Assembly (NCBI GenBank): GCA_947259315.1
Contig: CAMYLR010000006.1
Location: 1-64,000, forward strand
Length of the DNA stretch: 64,000 bases
Reading direction: 5' to 3'
DNA from: an uncultured Gemmatimonadales bacterium
Lineage (GTDB): Bacteria; Gemmatimonadota; Gemmatimonadetes; JACCXV01; JAHWKZ01
How positions within the stretch are numbered: the first letter of the stretch is position 1; every line of letters begins with the position of its first letter. Position numbers and translations under genes: made by a program. Below, in pieces: positions 4,655 to 13,403 of the stretch. The notes below the pieces were generated by a model, which saw only the letters and a program-made list of their open reading frames with translations, was not told where the DNA came from and did not search any database.

Positions 4655-4978
4655 CTACCGTTGACCGTGAAACACCTCGGCTACCGTCGCGTCGTCGCCG
4701 AAGATGATCATCGTCCGAGCGACGATCTGTCCTTGCGGATCATAGCTGTAGTAGGTCCACCGCTCCTGACCGCCTTCCATGGTGACCCGGGTGCGCGGCT
4801 CACCAAGCAGGTTCCGCACTTCGTCCTGCTCCATGCCTTGCTCGAGCAACTCCGCGGTGGAATCGGTGTAGGCCGCTGTATCGGCTACAGCGGGGCTGTC
4901 GGCCTCCCCACCACCGCCGCCACAGGCGACCGGCAGGACGCAAATCATCGCCACGGTAACTACAAAAAGCGCTCGCAT
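4655..4978 (-). CDS. Small lipoprotein, SmpA/OmlA (BamE)-like
   Basis: 107 aa. Signal peptide of about 18 residues ends in a lipobox-like LPVAC, followed by a glycine-rich linker GGGGGE. The mature part has LLEQGMEQDEVRNLLGEPRTR and RWTYYSY, the pattern of BamE/SmpA-type proteins (helix with G.s.ddV..llGeP, then a W.Yy strand). In proteobacteria BamE helps the outer-membrane barrel assembly complex; other proteins with the same fold bind different partners, so I do not assign bamE. It sits between the second TonB receptor of the B12 operon (98 nt upstream) and plsC (18 nt downstream). Confidence 0.7.
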   Translation of the reverse strand: MRALFVVTVAMICVLPVACGGGGGEADSPAVADTAAYTDSTAELLEQGMEQDEVRNLLGEPRTRVTMEGGQERWTYYSYDPQGQIVARTMIIFGDDATVAEVFHGQR

Positions 4979-5076: not shown

Positions 5077-7209
5077 CTAGTTGCGGAACCGCCAATTGAC
5101 CCCGAAAAACCCCTCGCGACCCGGAAGAGAGAACGCCTCCTCGGTCCGGTATATCTCGTTGGTTATGTTCTTGAGCGAGACAAAGATCGTGAAGTTGATG
5201 ATCGTTCCCTGGACGAGCAGGTCGGTAACAAAGTACGAAGAGAGGGTCTCACCGGTCAGCGTCGTCCGCTCGCCATTGAACCTTCCAGTGGCCCGAGCCT
5301 CCAGGAGCAGATCACGACTGGGAAAGAGTCGCGTCGCATATCGCACCTGACCCAAGAACTGCGATTCGGGCACGTACGGGATGCGATCACCGGACTCGTC
5401 CTCGGTCGCATTCAGACGTCGCGCGACAACCCGTCCACGTAACCCCCACGGCAGCGGCCCCGCTACTTCGCCCTCGAACCCGTTCACCGATAGATCGACG
5501 ACGTCGAATGTGTTGAACCCGATCTCCGCTAGTCGGGAATTGTCAAACTCAGCCCGGTCGAAGTACAACCACGCTGTCGGCGGCAGCCACAAGAACGCCT
5601 CGTCGCCGTTGGTCGTGAACAGGCGTCCGGTAGCCTTCCAGCCTCCACGGTTCCATGCCACCTCACCCCGAACGCTGGTCCACGCCTCGAGCTGCTGTGG
5701 TCGCGCTGCCTTGCCAGGATGGATCTCCACGCTCTCGGCCGCAAATGCCTCCAGCAACGCTTGACCGGCGAAACTGGCCGGTCGTACGGATCTGCCGCCC
5801 GCCACTCGAACGGTGAACTCGGGGTGGGGCCGGCCCAGCGCCTCGAACTGCCACGCCAAGCCGCTTTCTGCCGCATCGCCAAACGACATCCGACGCACCG
5901 CTCCATTGACCGCGTACAGATCGTCGGGCTCACCCCACCCTACCCCACCACCCCATTCCGTCTGTCGCCTTGGGTTCTCTACAAGCGCGGCCTCGGGATC
6001 ATCCTCGACCGGATCGAAGATGCTGCTCCCATCGACCCTCAGGAACGATGGATGCAGTGACTCCGCGTCGAGCTCATCGCGTGCTCCTGCCGCCCATACC
6101 AAGAGCGGACCGCTGCGGAAATCGACTGTGCCGCGGAACCCTTCACGCTCCCCCTTGCCCAACAGACCCTGGGCGCTTCGGAAATCGAAGTTTTCGCGAA
6201 ACTCCTGGCGCGAGCGGGAATAGTGCAGGCGAGTCCCCACGTCACCCCAGCTTCCAGCGTAGAACAAGTGCACCACACTGCCGTCTTGATCCTGAGAACC
6301 CGATACATTGGTGCGGCTGGCGTCGCCGGAGAATCCATCGCTCAGCCGTGACACCTCCAGTCGGTGTCTCGATCCGATTCGCCAGCCGAGCTTGGTGATG
6401 AACTGGTTGCGAGTGAAGTCGCCGACCCTCAAAAACCCATCGGTGGCATCGAAGTTGGCGCCCAGGAACACGTCGCCGCGTCCGGTGATCGATCGACCGA
6501 AGTTGCCACTGAACGTCTCGACCTTGAACGAACCGGCGGTGAACGCGAGCATCGATCGGGAGGTCCGCGTCAGGCTCCTGCGCGTGGTGATCGCCAGCAC
6601 CCCGCCGGTTGCGCCGCTTCCCCATGCCGCACCCTGTGGACCCGGATACCAGGCCACTTTTGCGATCCCCTCGAGCGCGATGCGGCGCAGATCCCAGTTC
6701 ACCGACAACGGCTCACCAACCGGTACCCCGTCGATCACGACCTCGATGTTCGTGTGCGATCCAAACGACGAGCCGACGAACGTGCTGAGCCCGCCACCCC
6801 CCATATCCTGGGCCAGGGTCAACCCCTCGCTTTCGATAACGTCGAGGAGGCTGAACGCCCCGCGCCCGAGGAGTTGATCTCCAGTCAGAACCCATGCTGG
6901 CCACGCTCCGGGCCGCTCCAGCGTATAGGAGTCGATCAAGCTGTCGGGGAAGATCTCGACCAGCTCGGTGAACTTGGGCTTCAGCGTATCGGCCGAGCCC
7001 AGGGTGTCGCCAAGCAGCGTGATGCGCGGGTCGGTGATCGGCTCGGGGTAGGTCCAACCAACACCATCGACCGAATCAGCCGGGGCCAATGAATCGGAAG
7101 GAGCTACGGTGTCTGCCGGTGCGGGCTCGGGCTGGTCCTGCGCCGCAGCTCGACTCGCCGACGCAAAGAGCACGGCAACCAAAACGACCCGGGCTGGCGG
7201 CCTGAACAC
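5077..7209 (-). CDS. TonB-dependent outer-membrane receptor (second receptor of the B12 operon)
   Basis: 710 aa. A signal peptide ending near SRAAAQ is followed by a low-complexity Pro/Ala/Asp linker (QPEPAPADTVAPSDS...), a plug domain (about 100-210) with GRGAFSLLDVIES, VVIDGVPVGEP and GSGATGGVLAITT, and a 22-strand-type barrel ending in an aromatic F-N-W-R-F-R-N terminus, typical for BAM insertion. It begins 5 nt after the stop of the beta-propeller lipoprotein, so it is probably in the cobalamin-riboswitch transcript. By position it could import a corrinoid, cobinamide or another B12-linked ligand; the substrate is not readable from sequence. No N-terminal carboxypeptidase-regulatory domain is evident, unlike the btuB-like gene upstream. 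Confidence 0.85.
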   Translation of the reverse strand: MFRPPARVVLVAVLFASASRAAAQDQPEPAPADTVAPSDSLAPADSVDGVGWTYPEPITDPRITLLGDTLGSADTLKPKFTELVEIFPDSLIDSYTLERPGAWPAWVLTGDQLLGRGAFSLLDVIESEGLTLAQDMGGGGLSTFVGSSFGSHTNIEVVIDGVPVGEPLSVNWDLRRIALEGIAKVAWYPGPQGAAWGSGATGGVLAITTRRSLTRTSRSMLAFTAGSFKVETFSGNFGRSITGRGDVFLGANFDATDGFLRVGDFTRNQFITKLGWRIGSRHRLEVSRLSDGFSGDASRTNVSGSQDQDGSVVHLFYAGSWGDVGTRLHYSRSRQEFRENFDFRSAQGLLGKGEREGFRGTVDFRSGPLLVWAAGARDELDAESLHPSFLRVDGSSIFDPVEDDPEAALVENPRRQTEWGGGVGWGEPDDLYAVNGAVRRMSFGDAAESGLAWQFEALGRPHPEFTVRVAGGRSVRPASFAGQALLEAFAAESVEIHPGKAARPQQLEAWTSVRGEVAWNRGGWKATGRLFTTNGDEAFLWLPPTAWLYFDRAEFDNSRLAEIGFNTFDVVDLSVNGFEGEVAGPLPWGLRGRVVARRLNATEDESGDRIPYVPESQFLGQVRYATRLFPSRDLLLEARATGRFNGERTTLTGETLSSYFVTDLLVQGTIINFTIFVSLKNITNEIYRTEEAFSLPGREGFFGVNWRFRN

Positions 7210-7214
7210 CCGGG

Positions 7215-8270
7215 CTAACCTCCGAGCATCGTAAACGCGATGTCAATCGGACACGTGCCGACCTGGATCGTTCGCTCCAGGACGAGATCTTCCGACAAGC
7301 GGAAGACATCGCCTGGCTCGGAACACTCGAGCTCCAGCGTGTAGGGAGTGCCGTCGCTATCGAAACCGACACCGGCGGACGAACGATTTCCGCCAGGCGT
7401 TACCGGATTGAACGGATCGAAGACGAACTCCCGCGTTGCAGAGTCCCAAACCGCGATTCCATACTCGGTGGACGTAACCAACACTCGCCCGCCGGGACCG
7501 AACCCAACCCGTGACGGAAACTCGTCGAAACCGAGATGGTGCTCGGTCTCCTCGAGAGTCGCGGTCGATACAACCGACAGCGATCCGCTTCGTTCGCCAA
7601 ACCGACCGCGATTCGCTATGAACAACTGGCCGTCCGGCGCGAGCGCTGCTCCACCCGGGTTCTCGCCCGAAAGCTCGATCGTCTCGATCACCTGCAACGA
7701 TGCGATGTCGATCACCGACACAGTCCCCAACCGCACGGGAACGAAATCGTCACCGAGTTCGGCGTTGATCACGTAGGCCCGCTGGCCGTCGGACACGATG
7801 AACTCGGGGAAAAAGCCGACCAGGATCTCCGGGCCTACGTTGCCCGTCTGGACGTTGACTGGCGAAACAGAGTCGAGGTTCGGGTTGCCGACCAGCACCG
7901 TATCATCGTCGATAAACGCCACCCCGGTCGCGCCCGAATTCCGCGGCAGCTCTGCGCGACGTACGACGAACCGCTCATCGAGATCGACGATCACGACTTC
8001 AGGCAGCGATCCCATCGCCACGACCGCCGTGGCCCCGCGAACCGCAAACGTCACTGGAGACCCGTCGAACCCGACCCCGATCGTGAACATGTTGTCCGGA
8101 CGAGCGACTTCGAATACGGTCAGCGTTCGATCGATGCTATTGAGCACCACCGCGACCTCGGCGTCATCTGGAATGTCCGGCCCGAAGCTGCTGCCGCCGT
8201 CGCAAGCGGCGAAACCGGCCAGGATCATGGCCATCATTATGCTCTTTATCGTTGTTTTCATCGTCCTCAA
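7215..8270 (-). CDS. YncE-like beta-propeller lipoprotein in B12 operon (possible BtuG counterpart)
   Basis: 351 aa. The N-terminus has a lipoprotein-type signal (IMMAMILAGFAAC, Cys about 22) and a short linker. The rest is made of repeated approximately 40-residue blade units: NSIDRTLTVFEVAR, SLPEVVIVDLDE, LGTVSVIDIASLQVIETIELSG, SGSLSVVSTATLEETEHH, EYGIAVWDSATREFV. This is the pattern of YncE/NHL-like seven-bladed propellers. It overlaps the stop of the btuB-like receptor by 4 nt and precedes another TonB receptor. In Bacteroidetes, the surface propeller lipoprotein BtuG sits on BtuB and captures B12, so the same role is a reasonable inference here. Surface exposure is not shown. The start could be either of two Met codons three residues apart. 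Confidence 0.75.
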   Translation of the reverse strand: MRTMKTTIKSIMMAMILAGFAACDGGSSFGPDIPDDAEVAVVLNSIDRTLTVFEVARPDNMFTIGVGFDGSPVTFAVRGATAVVAMGSLPEVVIVDLDERFVVRRAELPRNSGATGVAFIDDDTVLVGNPNLDSVSPVNVQTGNVGPEILVGFFPEFIVSDGQRAYVINAELGDDFVPVRLGTVSVIDIASLQVIETIELSGENPGGAALAPDGQLFIANRGRFGERSGSLSVVSTATLEETEHHLGFDEFPSRVGFGPGGRVLVTSTEYGIAVWDSATREFVFDPFNPVTPGGNRSSAGVGFDSDGTPYTLELECSEPGDVFRLSEDLVLERTIQVGTCPIDIAFTMLGG

Positions 8271-10414
8271 TCGCTTGTTTGGGGCCTGATCCTGAGTTGC
8301 ACCCGGAACCGTCGTCCGGGCTCGGGAAAGCCAAAGATAAGAGCTTGCGTCTCACCGCTCACGCGGTCGATCGCGAGCTCCGTTTCCGCATCCAGCGACC
8401 CAACCCGCCAGAGCCGTGCTGCGGCAACGTCAAAGGTCCAGAATCCGGGCAGTTGATTGGCCTCCGTTGGGGCGGTCGTACGGGCGCCGGTGTAGCGCGA
8501 CTCGGCCCGCAGTCGCCAATCCCCAGGTGTCCACACTACCCGCGACTGCGCGCTGTGTTGCGGCCGATACACGACCTGCACATCGGCCCGCCCCTCGGAT
8601 GAATCGTAACGAACCTGGGCGTTGGCGTAGCTGAGATCCGCGGTAAGGTCCATCTCAGCGATCGTCGCACTCAGCCAAACCTCTCCGCCCCTACGCAGGA
8701 CGTCGAAATTCTGAGGGCTCCAAATAAACCGGAAGTCAGGCGCCCACTCGATCATATCGTCGACGTCAGCACGATACATCGATGCGCCGACGGCGAGGGC
8801 GATGTCGCCAGATCGGTGTGCCGACAGTCCGAACTCGATCTCCGAAACCACCCGTTCGGGTCTCAGGTCCGGGTTTGGGGCGACTCCAATCGCCGCGTCG
8901 AAAAACAGATCGCCGAGCGCCGGCGGATTGAACGCGCTTCGATGGGCGACCTCGAGTCGGAGCCGACCTGTTGTCACTCCCGCCCCGATGGCGTGGCTGA
9001 AGAACCACGCGTCGGTGACGTCATCGCGATCGACACGCGCTTGAGCTGTCAGCTCGATGTCACCGAGGTCGCCGATCGCTCGAGCGCCAACGCCAAAGTC
9101 GTTGAAGTCGTCAAACGCTCGCTCATCCAGACCGTCGGCGTCCACGGCGCGATACCGGAAATCGCCGTCAAACCCGACCTCCCGTACTCCCCCCCGGTGC
9201 ACTGCACGGGTGATCGAGCTGCGCAGCCCTACCTCATCGACGGTGGTCTCATCGTCATAGGCGGGGCCCAGCGGCGGCTCCGGGTCGCGATGCTCGAGCC
9301 GCTGCCGCGCGCTGTGAAATGCGACCTCGCTGGTCCCACCATCGCTTTCTCTATTCCAGTTGGCATGCAGGCGAACGCGGTCAAACGCTTGCCGCGCATT
9401 GAACGATGGCGCAAAAGCCTTTCCTGGTAAACCACGATCGCCGGTCTCGACCGCCGCACGGAAAGCGAGCCGACCAATCCGCAAATCGCGCTCGGCGGTC
9501 CCAAACACGTTCGTGCGGCCGAGATCGGCGTTTGTTCGCGTCCCGGAGAGACCACCCGCCCTGACCGGCAGTCGATAGTCAAACTCACCGTCGGCCAAGC
9601 TCACGAGACCCCCGGCCGACCACCGCCACGCACCAATGGCGTTGCCGGTCTCAATACTCGCATCCCGAGATCCCAGCGATCCGGCGCCCAGCACAACCTC
9701 GGTCGATGTTCCTGCGCGTCGCGACTCGACGACGATCACACCGGCTCGAGCCCGCGGCCCGTAGCGCGCCGAACGTGCGCCCACCTCGACCGTCACCGAT
9801 TCGACGCTGCTGACAGAGACGGTGCTCAGGTCGGCGGCGCCGGTCACCGGATCGTTGATCGCCACGCCATCGAGCAACACCAACACGCCCCCCGCACCAC
9901 TGCCGCGGATCATGGCGTACTCCGGTCCCGCGAGACCCGTCCGTCGAACCACCACGCCGGGCACACGGTCGATTAAGTCACCCACCGTCGTCGCTCCCGA
10001 CCGTTCGATCGCAGCCCGATCAAGCTGAAAGCCAGCCGCGTCGCGATTCAGGCTCTGAGCGACCACCGGGTCGACCGCGACCGTGGCGACCGTCAGCTCA
10101 ACCGTGACCCGCGTGATTCGCCCATGAGCGACTTTGACAGTGATCTCGCTTGACCGGTAGCCCAACCGCTGAACGCGGATCACGTGCGTACCCGAACTGA
10201 TGGCTTTGAAACGAAACTCGCCGTCAGAGCCCGCGGTGGTCATGAGCCCCAATTCCGCCGCCTCGACTGTCGCGAACGGTACTACGTGCCGGGTTTCGCG
10301 ATCGACGATCGTGCCCACGATCTCGCCCGGCCACTGGGCAGCCGCGCCGTCGCCGATCGCAACATCAAGCGATGGGGCCACCACCACCGCGAGGAGGAGC
10401 AACCGGCGCATCAC
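8267..10414 (-). CDS. btuB: TonB-dependent cobalamin receptor, BtuB-like
   Basis: 715 aa. Signal peptide to about residue 26, then a CarboxypepD_reg-like beta-sandwich (GEIVGTIVDRETRHVVPFATV...FRFKAISSGTHVIRVQRLGY), a plug domain (GATTVGDLIDRVPGVVVRRT, VLVLLDGVAINDP, ARSARYGPRARAGVIVVES) and a barrel with the conserved LRPERVVSEIEFG region. The last residues are not the classical terminal aromatic, although RFRVQLRIR is close to the end. It directly follows btuD (4-nt overlap) in a transcript led by a cobalamin riboswitch, which is the main reason for assigning B12 or another corrinoid. From sequence alone it is only a TonB receptor. Confidence 0.85.
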   Translation of the reverse strand: MMRRLLLLAVVVAPSLDVAIGDGAAAQWPGEIVGTIVDRETRHVVPFATVEAAELGLMTTAGSDGEFRFKAISSGTHVIRVQRLGYRSSEITVKVAHGRITRVTVELTVATVAVDPVVAQSLNRDAAGFQLDRAAIERSGATTVGDLIDRVPGVVVRRTGLAGPEYAMIRGSGAGGVLVLLDGVAINDPVTGAADLSTVSVSSVESVTVEVGARSARYGPRARAGVIVVESRRAGTSTEVVLGAGSLGSRDASIETGNAIGAWRWSAGGLVSLADGEFDYRLPVRAGGLSGTRTNADLGRTNVFGTAERDLRIGRLAFRAAVETGDRGLPGKAFAPSFNARQAFDRVRLHANWNRESDGGTSEVAFHSARQRLEHRDPEPPLGPAYDDETTVDEVGLRSSITRAVHRGGVREVGFDGDFRYRAVDADGLDERAFDDFNDFGVGARAIGDLGDIELTAQARVDRDDVTDAWFFSHAIGAGVTTGRLRLEVAHRSAFNPPALGDLFFDAAIGVAPNPDLRPERVVSEIEFGLSAHRSGDIALAVGASMYRADVDDMIEWAPDFRFIWSPQNFDVLRRGGEVWLSATIAEMDLTADLSYANAQVRYDSSEGRADVQVVYRPQHSAQSRVVWTPGDWRLRAESRYTGARTTAPTEANQLPGFWTFDVAAARLWRVGSLDAETELAIDRVSGETQALIFGFPEPGRRFRVQLRIRPQTSD

Positions 10415-11235
10415 GAAGCTGACTCCGGATGCAGCGGTACTACCTGGGGAGCGCCTCGGTCACGACCCGGGCCGGGGTGCGGCACCACTCTGACGGGCCA
10501 GCCGTAAACCTCGCTCAGCGTGCGCTCATCGAGCACCGACTCCGGCGCTCCGTCGGCCGCCACCCGGCCACGATGCAAGAGGATCACCCGATCCGCGTAG
10601 CGGGCCGCGAGGTTCAGGTTGTGGGTCGAGAGCAGCACGGTTGTCCGCTTGGCCGCCTCGGCCCTCAGAAGCTCCCATATCGACATCTCGCTGGCGATAT
10701 CGAGTGCAGCGGTCGGCTCATCCAGCGCTAGCGCGAGCGGCTCCTGCGCCAGCGCCCGGGCCAGCCTGGCCCGCTGACGCTCGCCGCCCGACAGCGTCAC
10801 GAACGATCGGTCCGCCAGTGTGTCGACTCGACACCGCTCAAGGGCGTCCTCGATCGCGCGGAGGTCGTCCGCTCCGGGTCGACGCCACGCACCGAGATGA
10901 GGATAGCGTCCCATCGCCACCAGCTCGCGCACCGTCACCGGAAACGCGGGCTCCTCGTGCTGGGCCATGATGCCAACGCGACGTGCGATTTCGAGTGCAC
11001 TCCACGCCGCCAGTTTGCGCCCCAGAAGCTCCGTTTCCCCGCGGTTCGGTTCACGCGCACCAACCAGCAATCGAATGAGCGTCGATTTCCCAGACCCGTT
11101 GGGCCCAACCAGCGCAACGATCTCGCCTGTCGTCACACCGAGCGTGGCCTCGTCGATCGCTTCTCGATCCCCGCTTGGATATCGATACCCGAGCCGAGTG
11201 GCGCGCCACACGATGTCGTTCTGCCTCAACTTCAT
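10411..11235 (-). CDS. btuD: Vitamin B12 ABC transporter ATP-binding protein
   Basis: 274 aa from the ATG at 11235, which overlaps the btuC stop (ATGA). A longer open frame upstream lies within btuC and is not used. Cytoplasmic ATPase of a FecCD-type importer: Walker A GPNGSGKST (about 43), Q-loop MAQHEEP, signature LSGGERQRARLARAL, Walker B LALALDEPTAALD, switch His in STHNLNLAARYADR. The tail VYGWPVRVVPHPGPGRD matches the C-terminal regulatory part of iron/cobalamin ATPases. With btuC and btuF immediately upstream behind the riboswitch, cobalamin is the likely substrate. A siderophore would be the alternative without the riboswitch. Confidence 0.92.
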   Translation of the reverse strand: MKLRQNDIVWRATRLGYRYPSGDREAIDEATLGVTTGEIVALVGPNGSGKSTLIRLLVGAREPNRGETELLGRKLAAWSALEIARRVGIMAQHEEPAFPVTVRELVAMGRYPHLGAWRRPGADDLRAIEDALERCRVDTLADRSFVTLSGGERQRARLARALAQEPLALALDEPTAALDIASEMSIWELLRAEAAKRTTVLLSTHNLNLAARYADRVILLHRGRVAADGAPESVLDERTLSEVYGWPVRVVPHPGPGRDRGAPQVVPLHPESAS

Positions 11236-12230
11236 GCCGGCGCCTGGCGCGTCTGGCGCCGTAAGACGAGAACAAAAAATGGCACCCCGACAAAGGCTGT
11301 AATGACACCCAACGGCAGTTCCCCGGGTGCCGTGATCACGCGGGCCAGCGTATCGGCCAAGGGCAAAAAGGCCGCCCCGACGAGCAGCGTCGCGGGCAAT
11401 AGGAACCGATGTCCACCACCCCACAGCAGACGCACAGTGTGGGGCACGAACAAACCGACGAACCCGATGCCGCCAGCCGCCACGACCGCACCGGCGGTCA
11501 GCAACGACGCGATCAGGTAGGCCAACAGACGGACCCGTTGAACGGGGACACCGAGAAATCCGGCTGTCTCTTCACCGTGTGCGATCAGATCGAAAGACCG
11601 TGACAGCCCGAGCAGCATGATCGATGCGCCGCCGAGCGCAAGCCCCAACATCCACACCAACCGCCAACTGGCACCGCCGAGGCCGCCCATCATCCAGAAC
11701 ACCGCCGCGCGAAACGCTTCCGCCTCCTGAAAGCTGAGCGCCAACAGGATACAGGCATTGAAAAACGTACCGGCAACAACACCCGACAGAAGCAGCACCC
11801 GAACATCGAGTCGGCGCTCGACGTTAGTCGCGATCCTGAGCACGAGTGCGATCGCCAGCGCCGCACCAATGAGCGCCGAAACCGGCAACGACCAGGCGGC
11901 TGCGCCGGCCCAGCCCGCACCGATCGCGACGACCGCGCCAACCGCGGCTCCACCCGAAACGCCCAGCACATACGGATCGGCGAGCGGGTTTCTGAGGAGC
12001 GCCTGAAACGTGGCGCCAGCCAGACCCAGGGCGCCGCCGACAAGCGCCGCCAGCACCGCCCTCGGGAGTCGAAGATCGCGAGTGATCGCGACGGCGATGG
12101 GGTCCCCATCACCCGAGAGGCCCTCCCAGACGCCACCCCACCCCAGGCCGACGGCTCCAAAACGGAGGCTCACAGCGATCGCAGCTGCCACAGCCAGGGC
12201 CAGGGCGGCGAGCACGAAGCCACGGCTCAT
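11232..12230 (-). CDS. btuC: Vitamin B12 ABC transporter permease (FecCD family)
   Basis: 332 aa from ATG at 12230, which overlaps the btuF stop by 4 nt. About ten transmembrane helices, starting GFVLAALALAVAAAIAVSL. Family motifs: RLPRAVLAALVGGALGLAGATFQALLRNPLADPYVLGVSGGAAVGA near the N-terminus (split here only by description), then GGIGFVGLFVPH and LPLGVITAFVGVPFFVLVL near the end. Forms a BtuC2D2 inner-membrane complex. Normal length. Belongs to the riboswitch operon btuF-btuC-btuD-btuB. Confidence 0.93.
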   Translation of the reverse strand: MSRGFVLAALALAVAAAIAVSLRFGAVGLGWGGVWEGLSGDGDPIAVAITRDLRLPRAVLAALVGGALGLAGATFQALLRNPLADPYVLGVSGGAAVGAVVAIGAGWAGAAAWSLPVSALIGAALAIALVLRIATNVERRLDVRVLLLSGVVAGTFFNACILLALSFQEAEAFRAAVFWMMGGLGGASWRLVWMLGLALGGASIMLLGLSRSFDLIAHGEETAGFLGVPVQRVRLLAYLIASLLTAGAVVAAGGIGFVGLFVPHTVRLLWGGGHRFLLPATLLVGAAFLPLADTLARVITAPGELPLGVITAFVGVPFFVLVLRRQTRQAPA

Positions 12231-13114
12231 CGCGCCCCCCAAACATCGACCAACGCGTCGTGGAGTGTCCTGGCGACGGTTCCCAGGTGGGGGCCAGGCC
12301 GATTCAACAAGTCAGTTGGAATGACCACAATCCGTCCTTCACGAACGGCGTCGAGATCACGCCAACCCGGTTGTTCGGAGAAAGCGCGCTCGACTTCGAT
12401 CATGGTAGCGTCGGTCGGAACGACCAGGATGTCGGGTTGGGCGGCCAGTACGGCTTCGAGCGAGACCTCTGGCCAACCCTCGTGGAGCTCGCCAAACGCA
12501 GGGGCGCCACCGGCGATCTCGATCACCTGACCGATGAATGTGCGTCGACCCGCCGTTCTCGGCGGATCGCCTAGCAACGCGTAGAAAACGGTCGGTTTGG
12601 GGTGCCTGAGGCCTGCCACCGAGATGGCCACCAACGACTCGCGAACCTCAGCTGCCAAAACCGCCGCCCGATCCGGCAGATCGAGTAGGCTCCCCAACTC
12701 GTCCAGCGACCGAAAGACACCCGTCGTATCCTCGATCGACGTCGCGTGGAACGCGATACCGCCAGCCTCTAGCCGCGATCGCAGACCGCGGTACTGGGCA
12801 GACTCCCAACCGATCACCAAATCGGGCTCGAGGGCGATCAGCGCTTCGAGGCTCGGATCGAGTCCCCCACCCACACTCGGGAGGTCGGCGATTTCAGGCG
12901 CCGTGTCGTAGCGTGTCCGGCCCACCAGCCGATCGGCAGCGTTTAGCGCGACGATCGCATCGGTCATGCTCGGAACCAGCGATACCACACGCTGGGCCGG
13001 AGGTCGACCCGCAACTTCACCCTGCTCGGCGGCGGACTGCTGCGGTCGATCGCAGTTTGCCAACGCCAACGATGCCGCAGCGACAATCCAGAGAGGTCGG
13101 TTCGTGGTCGACAC
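12227..13114 (-). CDS. btuF: Cobalamin-binding ABC substrate-binding protein
   Basis: 295 aa from GTG at 13114. The open frame continues upstream but would cross the terminator and riboswitch, so this GTG is chosen. Signal segment PLWIVAAASLALANC could be a lipobox, although Asn before Cys is unusual; the protein may be lipid-anchored or simply secreted. The Peripla_BP_2 fold shows in RVVSLVPSMTDAIVALNAADRLVGRT, LEALIALEPDLVIGWES and LEAVLAAQPDILVVPTD. Delivers B12 to BtuCD in the periplasm. First gene after the riboswitch, starting 20 nt after the U-tract of the riboswitch terminator. Confidence 0.9.
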   Translation of the reverse strand: MSTTNRPLWIVAAASLALANCDRPQQSAAEQGEVAGRPPAQRVVSLVPSMTDAIVALNAADRLVGRTRYDTAPEIADLPSVGGGLDPSLEALIALEPDLVIGWESAQYRGLRSRLEAGGIAFHATSIEDTTGVFRSLDELGSLLDLPDRAAVLAAEVRESLVAISVAGLRHPKPTVFYALLGDPPRTAGRRTFIGQVIEIAGGAPAFGELHEGWPEVSLEAVLAAQPDILVVPTDATMIEVERAFSEQPGWRDLDAVREGRIVVIPTDLLNRPGPHLGTVARTLHDALVDVWGAR

Positions 13115-13133: not shown

Positions 13134-13166
13134 AAAAAAAAAGCCTGCCCGCGGAGCGGACAGGCG
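13134..13166 (-). terminator. Riboswitch-linked intrinsic terminator upstream of btuF
   Basis: Minus strand: 10-bp stem (GCCTGTCCGC / GCGGGCAGGC, one G-U) with a TCC loop, followed by about nine T. It lies between the cobalamin aptamer and the btuF start. The aptamer's GGAGACC can pair with GGTCTCC just before the terminator stem, and its CCTGCC with GGCAGG in the 3' arm, suggesting alternative anti-terminator pairings. Confidence 0.85.
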
Positions 13167-13229
13167 AGGGAGACCGGGCGAGCCGACCTCTCGCCGCATC
13201 CCTCCCGCGAAGGATACTGACGGCGAGCG

Positions 13230-13365
13230 CTTCGAGGCAGGTCTCCTGGCTTTGGTCGCCCGGTCGGGCAACCGTCACAGTGGCGGGGCCGCTGCGGATT
13301 CACACCGCATTCCCATATTCTCCCATCGCCGACGATCGTCGTCGACAGGCACCTCGAAACGACTA
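13230..13365 (-). promoter_or_regulatory. Cobalamin riboswitch (aptamer)
   Basis: Read on the minus strand the region shows the conserved order of the B12 aptamer: GAGGTGCC at the 5' side, then GGGAA..GCGGTG.GAATCCGC, then the B12 box CCCCGCCACTGTGA, and AGCCAGGAGACCTGCCTC at the 3' side. All four blocks are in place and spaced as in the family. It precedes an intrinsic terminator and the btuFCD-btuB operon, so B12 excess should cause premature termination. Class by known consensus; ligand by inference from the class and from the downstream transporter genes. Confidence 0.95.
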
Positions 13366-13403
13366 TTGCGCTACGTCATTCGCACCTCACCGCTAAACGG
13401 TGT

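Follow-up and report, generated by a model that had tools for sequence, protein, structure and literature searches.

The closest described counterparts of the propeller lipoprotein considered here are the BtuG proteins of Bacteroides (BtuG1, BtuG2 and BtuG3; PF16819, DUF5074; PDB 8ptd, 8blw, 8bmy and 3dsm); BtuG has been reported as exclusive to Bacteroidetes, a restriction attributed to competition among gut bacteria (PMC6143338). Other members of the same superfamily that share its repeat motif are the archaeal surface-layer YVTN propeller 1l0q and the YncE-like proteins (PF21783), which have regular consensus repeats and stand outside any lipoprotein or B12 context, and the YncE/YVTN-like relatives within Gemmatimonadota, which are not located near btu genes and belong to another clade. 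E. coli likewise has a receptor, an ABC transporter and a binding protein for B12 (BtuBCDF); it is not known to have a propeller lipoprotein partner for them. A literature search returned no paper naming BtuG together with Gemmatimonadota.

The window, a stretch of 64,000 nucleotides from an uncultured member of the Gemmatimonadales, carries a closely spaced series of elements on its minus strand, in the order riboswitch, terminator, btuF, btuC, btuD, BtuB-like receptor, propeller and second TonB receptor (Table 1). The first-pass annotation had described a propeller lipoprotein at 7215-8270 (-), placed between BtuB and a second TonB receptor downstream of a B12 riboswitch, as a possible BtuG equivalent; the reading frame proved to be real, and its placement and the riboswitch were both confirmed. 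The RF00174 match is the sole cobalamin riboswitch found in a search of the genome, and the terminator that follows it (hairpin 13165-13143 plus T9; fold -20 kcal/mol, z -3.9, by terminator scan and folding) is likely its expression platform. The btuF-like protein has a lipobox of its own (LANC) and a GTG start, and the real start of the btuD-like ATPase is probably internal to the open reading frame listed. The BtuB-like receptor reaches 105.7 bits against TIGR01779, below the model cut-off of 599.7; its top PDB match is E. coli BtuB, followed by BtuB1 and BtuB2 of B. theta, and a CarboxypepD_reg domain (PF13715) lies N-terminal to its plug. Since two B12-binding-domain matches were found in the genome whereas CobS was not found in this draft of about 96% completeness, B12 uptake should matter to the organism. 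The region downstream of the operon also encodes, at 4655-4978 (-), a small protein that resembles a lipoprotein and matches the BamE domain weakly, at 27.6 bits against a cut-off of 23.2.

Table 1. Features of the B12-uptake locus in the window.
Feature	Position	Strand	Remarks
Cobalamin riboswitch aptamer (RF00174)	13219..13371	-	cmscan 81.6 bits, full model 1-189
Intrinsic terminator	13134..13165	-	GC-rich stem of 10 bp followed by nine T; separates the riboswitch from btuF
btuF-like periplasmic binding protein	12227..13114	-	PF01497 6e-29; NCBIfam BtuF 76 bits, below cut-off
btuC-like permease	11232..12242	-	PF01032 1.6e-84; BtuC models 211-214 bits
btuD-like ATPase	10411..11424	-	PF00005 1.5e-27; corrinoid ATPase model PRK09536 219.7 bits
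BtuB-like TonB-dependent receptor	8267..10414	-	Plug 3.4e-18; TIGR01779 2.4e-30
Seven-bladed beta-propeller lipoprotein, proposed BtuG-like B12-capture partner of BtuB	7215..8261	-	348 aa
Lipoprotein signal peptide through invariant Cys20	8202..8261	-	
Second TonB receptor, immediately following the propeller	5077-7209	-	weakly BtuB-like, 39.9 bits

The propeller more likely starts at the ATG at 8261, the coordinate 8270 taking in a TTG three codons upstream; its open reading frame begins 5 bp beyond that of the BtuB-like receptor. The N-terminus, MKTTIKSIMMAMILAGFAAC-DGG, contains AGFAAC and matches a PROSITE-type lipobox pattern; the lipobox Cys is invariant in all 41 aligned family members, nearly all of which carry it in a clear lipobox (LAAC, LAGC and IAAC among them), and the lipoprotein-type signal reported earlier is thereby upheld. 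Acidic residues often follow this Cys directly (CDDSTGP, CSDDS); the +2 residue is variable across the family and is Asp in the window propeller, which in E. coli would mean retention at the inner membrane. The mature protein is strongly acidic, with a net charge of -31 (family range -34 to 0), which agrees with the electrostatic attraction suggested in the case of BtuG and, taken alone, is weak evidence. The repeat model TIGR02276 (YVTN-type) matches at 32.5 bits, above its cut-off of 27.85, and an AF2 model built from the 41-row alignment (pLDDT 93.5, pTM 0.89) bears out the seven-bladed fold: its strands form seven four-stranded blades, and the last strand joins blade 1 and closes the ring.

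A protein search across 395 genomes found the propeller family to be widespread in Gemmatimonadota, the phylum being confirmed by the titles of the matching loci. In a BLAST search for BtuB, independent of the propeller search and yielding 70 places, a family member lay immediately downstream and on the same strand at 56 of the BtuB-like matches; diverged propellers were recovered by profile HMM after seven further matches (L117, L118, L119, L121, L122, L123 and L125), two further BtuB-propeller pairs were interrupted by contig ends (G049, G381), and most of the remaining five matches were partial, or at or near a contig end. Conversely, when the 73 loci with a family propeller were examined for same-strand neighbors up to 2 kb away, a BtuB-like receptor was present at 57, and either such a receptor or btuC/D at 71; one of the two loci lacking a btu neighbor begins at a contig end. 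In 31 of 41 family loci the contig also carries a cobalamin riboswitch, 2.2-6.8 kb upstream. Since BtuB followed by the propeller is a recurrent gene order in the phylum, the arrangement in the window is more than chance; the neighbor conservation that the first-pass annotation had put forward as a check was found, the assignment of the propeller to the B12-uptake system is strongly supported, and the protein is almost certainly a dedicated B12-uptake lipoprotein. A contig scan with two narrow peptide patterns found matches only in Gemmatimonadota records, groundwater records among them; limited to these patterns, it says nothing on absence beyond the phylum.

The second TonB receptor, which had been counted as part of the B12 context, does not belong to the conserved unit: at E <= 1e-20, a search of 199 other Gemmatimonadota genomes yielded no relative, and the receptor occupies a very long branch of the receptor tree.

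We propose that the propeller would be an outer-membrane lipoprotein serving as an accessory devoted to B12 (corrinoid) uptake; through its conserved top face, the seven-bladed propeller would bind the corrinoid and pass it to the neighboring BtuB, and BtuFCD would carry it onward into the cytoplasm. By way of the riboswitch-terminator ahead of the operon, the protein would be produced only under cobalamin scarcity. On balance we regard capture of the corrinoid at the cell surface for BtuB as fairly probable.

A different placement of the propeller is suggested by loci in which its gene comes immediately after btuD and has no BtuB beside it (L061, L095, L097, L107, L108, L110, L112 and L126); these lineages count against capture for BtuB, and would fit a protein on the periplasmic side of the B12 pathway that keeps the corrinoid on its way from BtuB to BtuF, or acts as a scaffold for BtuFCD, and forms no surface lid. 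In genome G008, where the propeller also follows btuD, a BtuB-like receptor of a third type is found on another contig (L161:4553-6715), under that genome's riboswitch. The Asp at +2 in the window propeller points in the same direction, as does the mirror-tree analysis, in which the propeller is coupled more to btuD (partial r 0.52) than to BtuB (0.24); these data were set aside as evidence of a specific BtuB-propeller coupling, because the correlation extends to all operon mates and gives BtuB no special place. The periplasmic placement is also consistent with a fusion model of a natural neighbor pair (L049), in frame and with the stop read through as a single chain (46 alignment rows, seven of them paired): both domains were well predicted, with no confident relative orientation and hence no confident BtuB interface, the tether from the periplasmic end of the barrel to the lipoprotein being short and unnatural, so that the model speaks neither for nor against a lid; the pTM of 0.65 is, by our own estimate, about what would be expected for two domains without a fixed orientation. 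Against a periplasmic role, the gene directly follows btuB in most loci, often with a gap of less than 120 bp, and in many of these btuCD lies outside the cluster (e.g., L033, L034 and L039); we consider such a role unlikely, and surface capture for BtuB is the reading retained below.

Within the family, the top-face loops (B-C and D-A) are better conserved than those of the bottom face (mean relative entropy 2.25 vs. 1.77, p 3e-4), and most of the invariant or nearly invariant positions are found on the top face (N41, N126, P152, N166, L169, F173, P175, N201, G219, F245, P249 and C313/C337); some of the conserved Asn residues belong to the YVTN motif, as its N, which makes them unspecific. 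The conserved top face would correspond to the B12-binding side of BtuG. In BtuG2, the residues W194, Y316 and Y335 narrow or line the B12 pocket (PMC10404256); they appear to map to the same kinds of top-side loop, in a remote alignment that gave no confident match in the propeller to any BtuG B12-binding residue. A Foldseek search of the PDB with the propeller model returned BtuG structures, many of them corrinoid-bound, and the archaeal 1l0q at ranks 1 to 17 (8ptd and 8ptf with TM 0.75-0.76 and Z about 33). The fold comparison with BtuG that the first-pass annotation had called for thus succeeded in part: BtuG structures are the top Foldseek matches, but their Z in VIA-align (33 for BtuG1) is no higher than that of 1l0q (37) or nitrous oxide reductase (33), and with values this close the fold alone is undecisive on function.

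This closeness of Z values, which does not separate BtuG from nitrous oxide reductase or 1l0q, would also suit a propeller of the B12 regulon that does not bind B12, either a BamB-like structural or assembly factor stabilizing the TonB receptor or a corrinoid-modifying enzyme. YVTN propellers are versatile, and BamB is a propeller lipoprotein too; yet the conserved face appears to be the ligand face, the closest Foldseek matches are corrinoid binders, and the family alignment showed no conserved set of catalytic residues or metal ligands, so that a role of this kind is decidedly improbable.

In an unrooted tree of 34 linked propellers, 11 unlinked Gemmatimonadota YVTN propellers and three Bacteroidota BtuGs, the linked propellers all fell on one side of a branch with 97/95 support, while the unlinked propellers and the BtuGs each formed their own clade (100/99 each); as all linked propellers form one clade, the family seems to have a single origin. 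With hhalign, the family matched generic propellers at E 2e-22 and BtuG more weakly, at E 1.8e-8 to 8.5e-10; the family-BtuG alignment was full-length and co-linear (311 columns, 95%), and that of BtuG with generic propellers was partial and out of register. A sequence-profile search gave a match to BtuG1 at E 1.8e-13 and its best match, at E 1.8e-20, to the archaeal 1l0q. A BtuG profile scored ten unlinked generic propellers at 34-69 bits and the linked propellers at 0-38; this score was dropped as evidence of orthology because many unlinked generic propellers score equally or higher, and the same result counts against capture for BtuB. Judged by these profile comparisons, the kinship of the family with BtuG would be no closer than that of generic YVTN propellers. 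The window propeller has no match to PF16819, and one of 41 family members matches it, at E 8e-4; the three Bacteroidota BtuGs pass the model at 39.7-51.5 bits (cut-off 27.2). Because the PF16819 match is lacking and the kinship appears no closer than to generic propellers, the propeller is, by sequence, not classed as a BtuG member. That a generic YVTN/YncE propeller came to stand in the operon by chance is, despite the strong similarity to generic propellers, highly implausible, given that the linked family is one clade distinct from the generic proteins and that B12-uptake genes lie beside 71 of its 73 loci.

The proposal of a BtuG equivalent therefore fares differently in its two parts. 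Anatomy and context speak for it: both proteins are acidic, seven-bladed propeller lipoproteins with an unpermuted blade order and a conserved top face, and both are encoded directly after btuB (also in the Bacteroidota loci L133-L135) under the control of a cobalamin riboswitch. Sequence does not: structure alignments give 14-18% identity, PF16819 is not matched, and the family forms its own clade. The gene order is FCD-B-G in the window vs. B-G-F-C-D in one Bacteroidota locus (L135), with B-G-F-C seen in another (L134); in addition, the Gemmatimonadota family has a conserved Cys pair on the top face (C313, C337) that was not seen in the BtuG alignment. The propeller thus resembles BtuG in most testable features of anatomy and context, and B12 binding and contact with BtuB are predicted by analogy.

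It is conceivable, if rather doubtful, that Gemmatimonadota recruited a YVTN propeller independently, once and early, to serve BtuB as a B12-capturing lid at the cell surface, in which case lid-type B12 capture devices would have arisen at least twice; the three unrooted propeller clades would fit such recruitment as well as a B12-specific ancestor in common with BtuG. The BtuB tree, in which the Bacteroidota BtuBs occupy a separate long branch, is uninformative on joint inheritance of the BtuB-BtuG pair. A BtuG-like surface B12-capture helper probably exists in Gemmatimonadota as a second phylum; if so, high-affinity surface capture of B12 would be a wider strategy, independent of the gut, and structural studies would gain another BtuB-propeller system, one of distinct sequence.

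Two variations on the common pattern were observed among the linked loci. Two genomes (G250, G272) encode two tandem propeller lipoproteins after BtuB (L060:2060-4314, L066:8256-10510), and two linked propellers (L065:7720-9090, L100:2219-3841) are longer than 450 aa and contain an additional sequence stretch.
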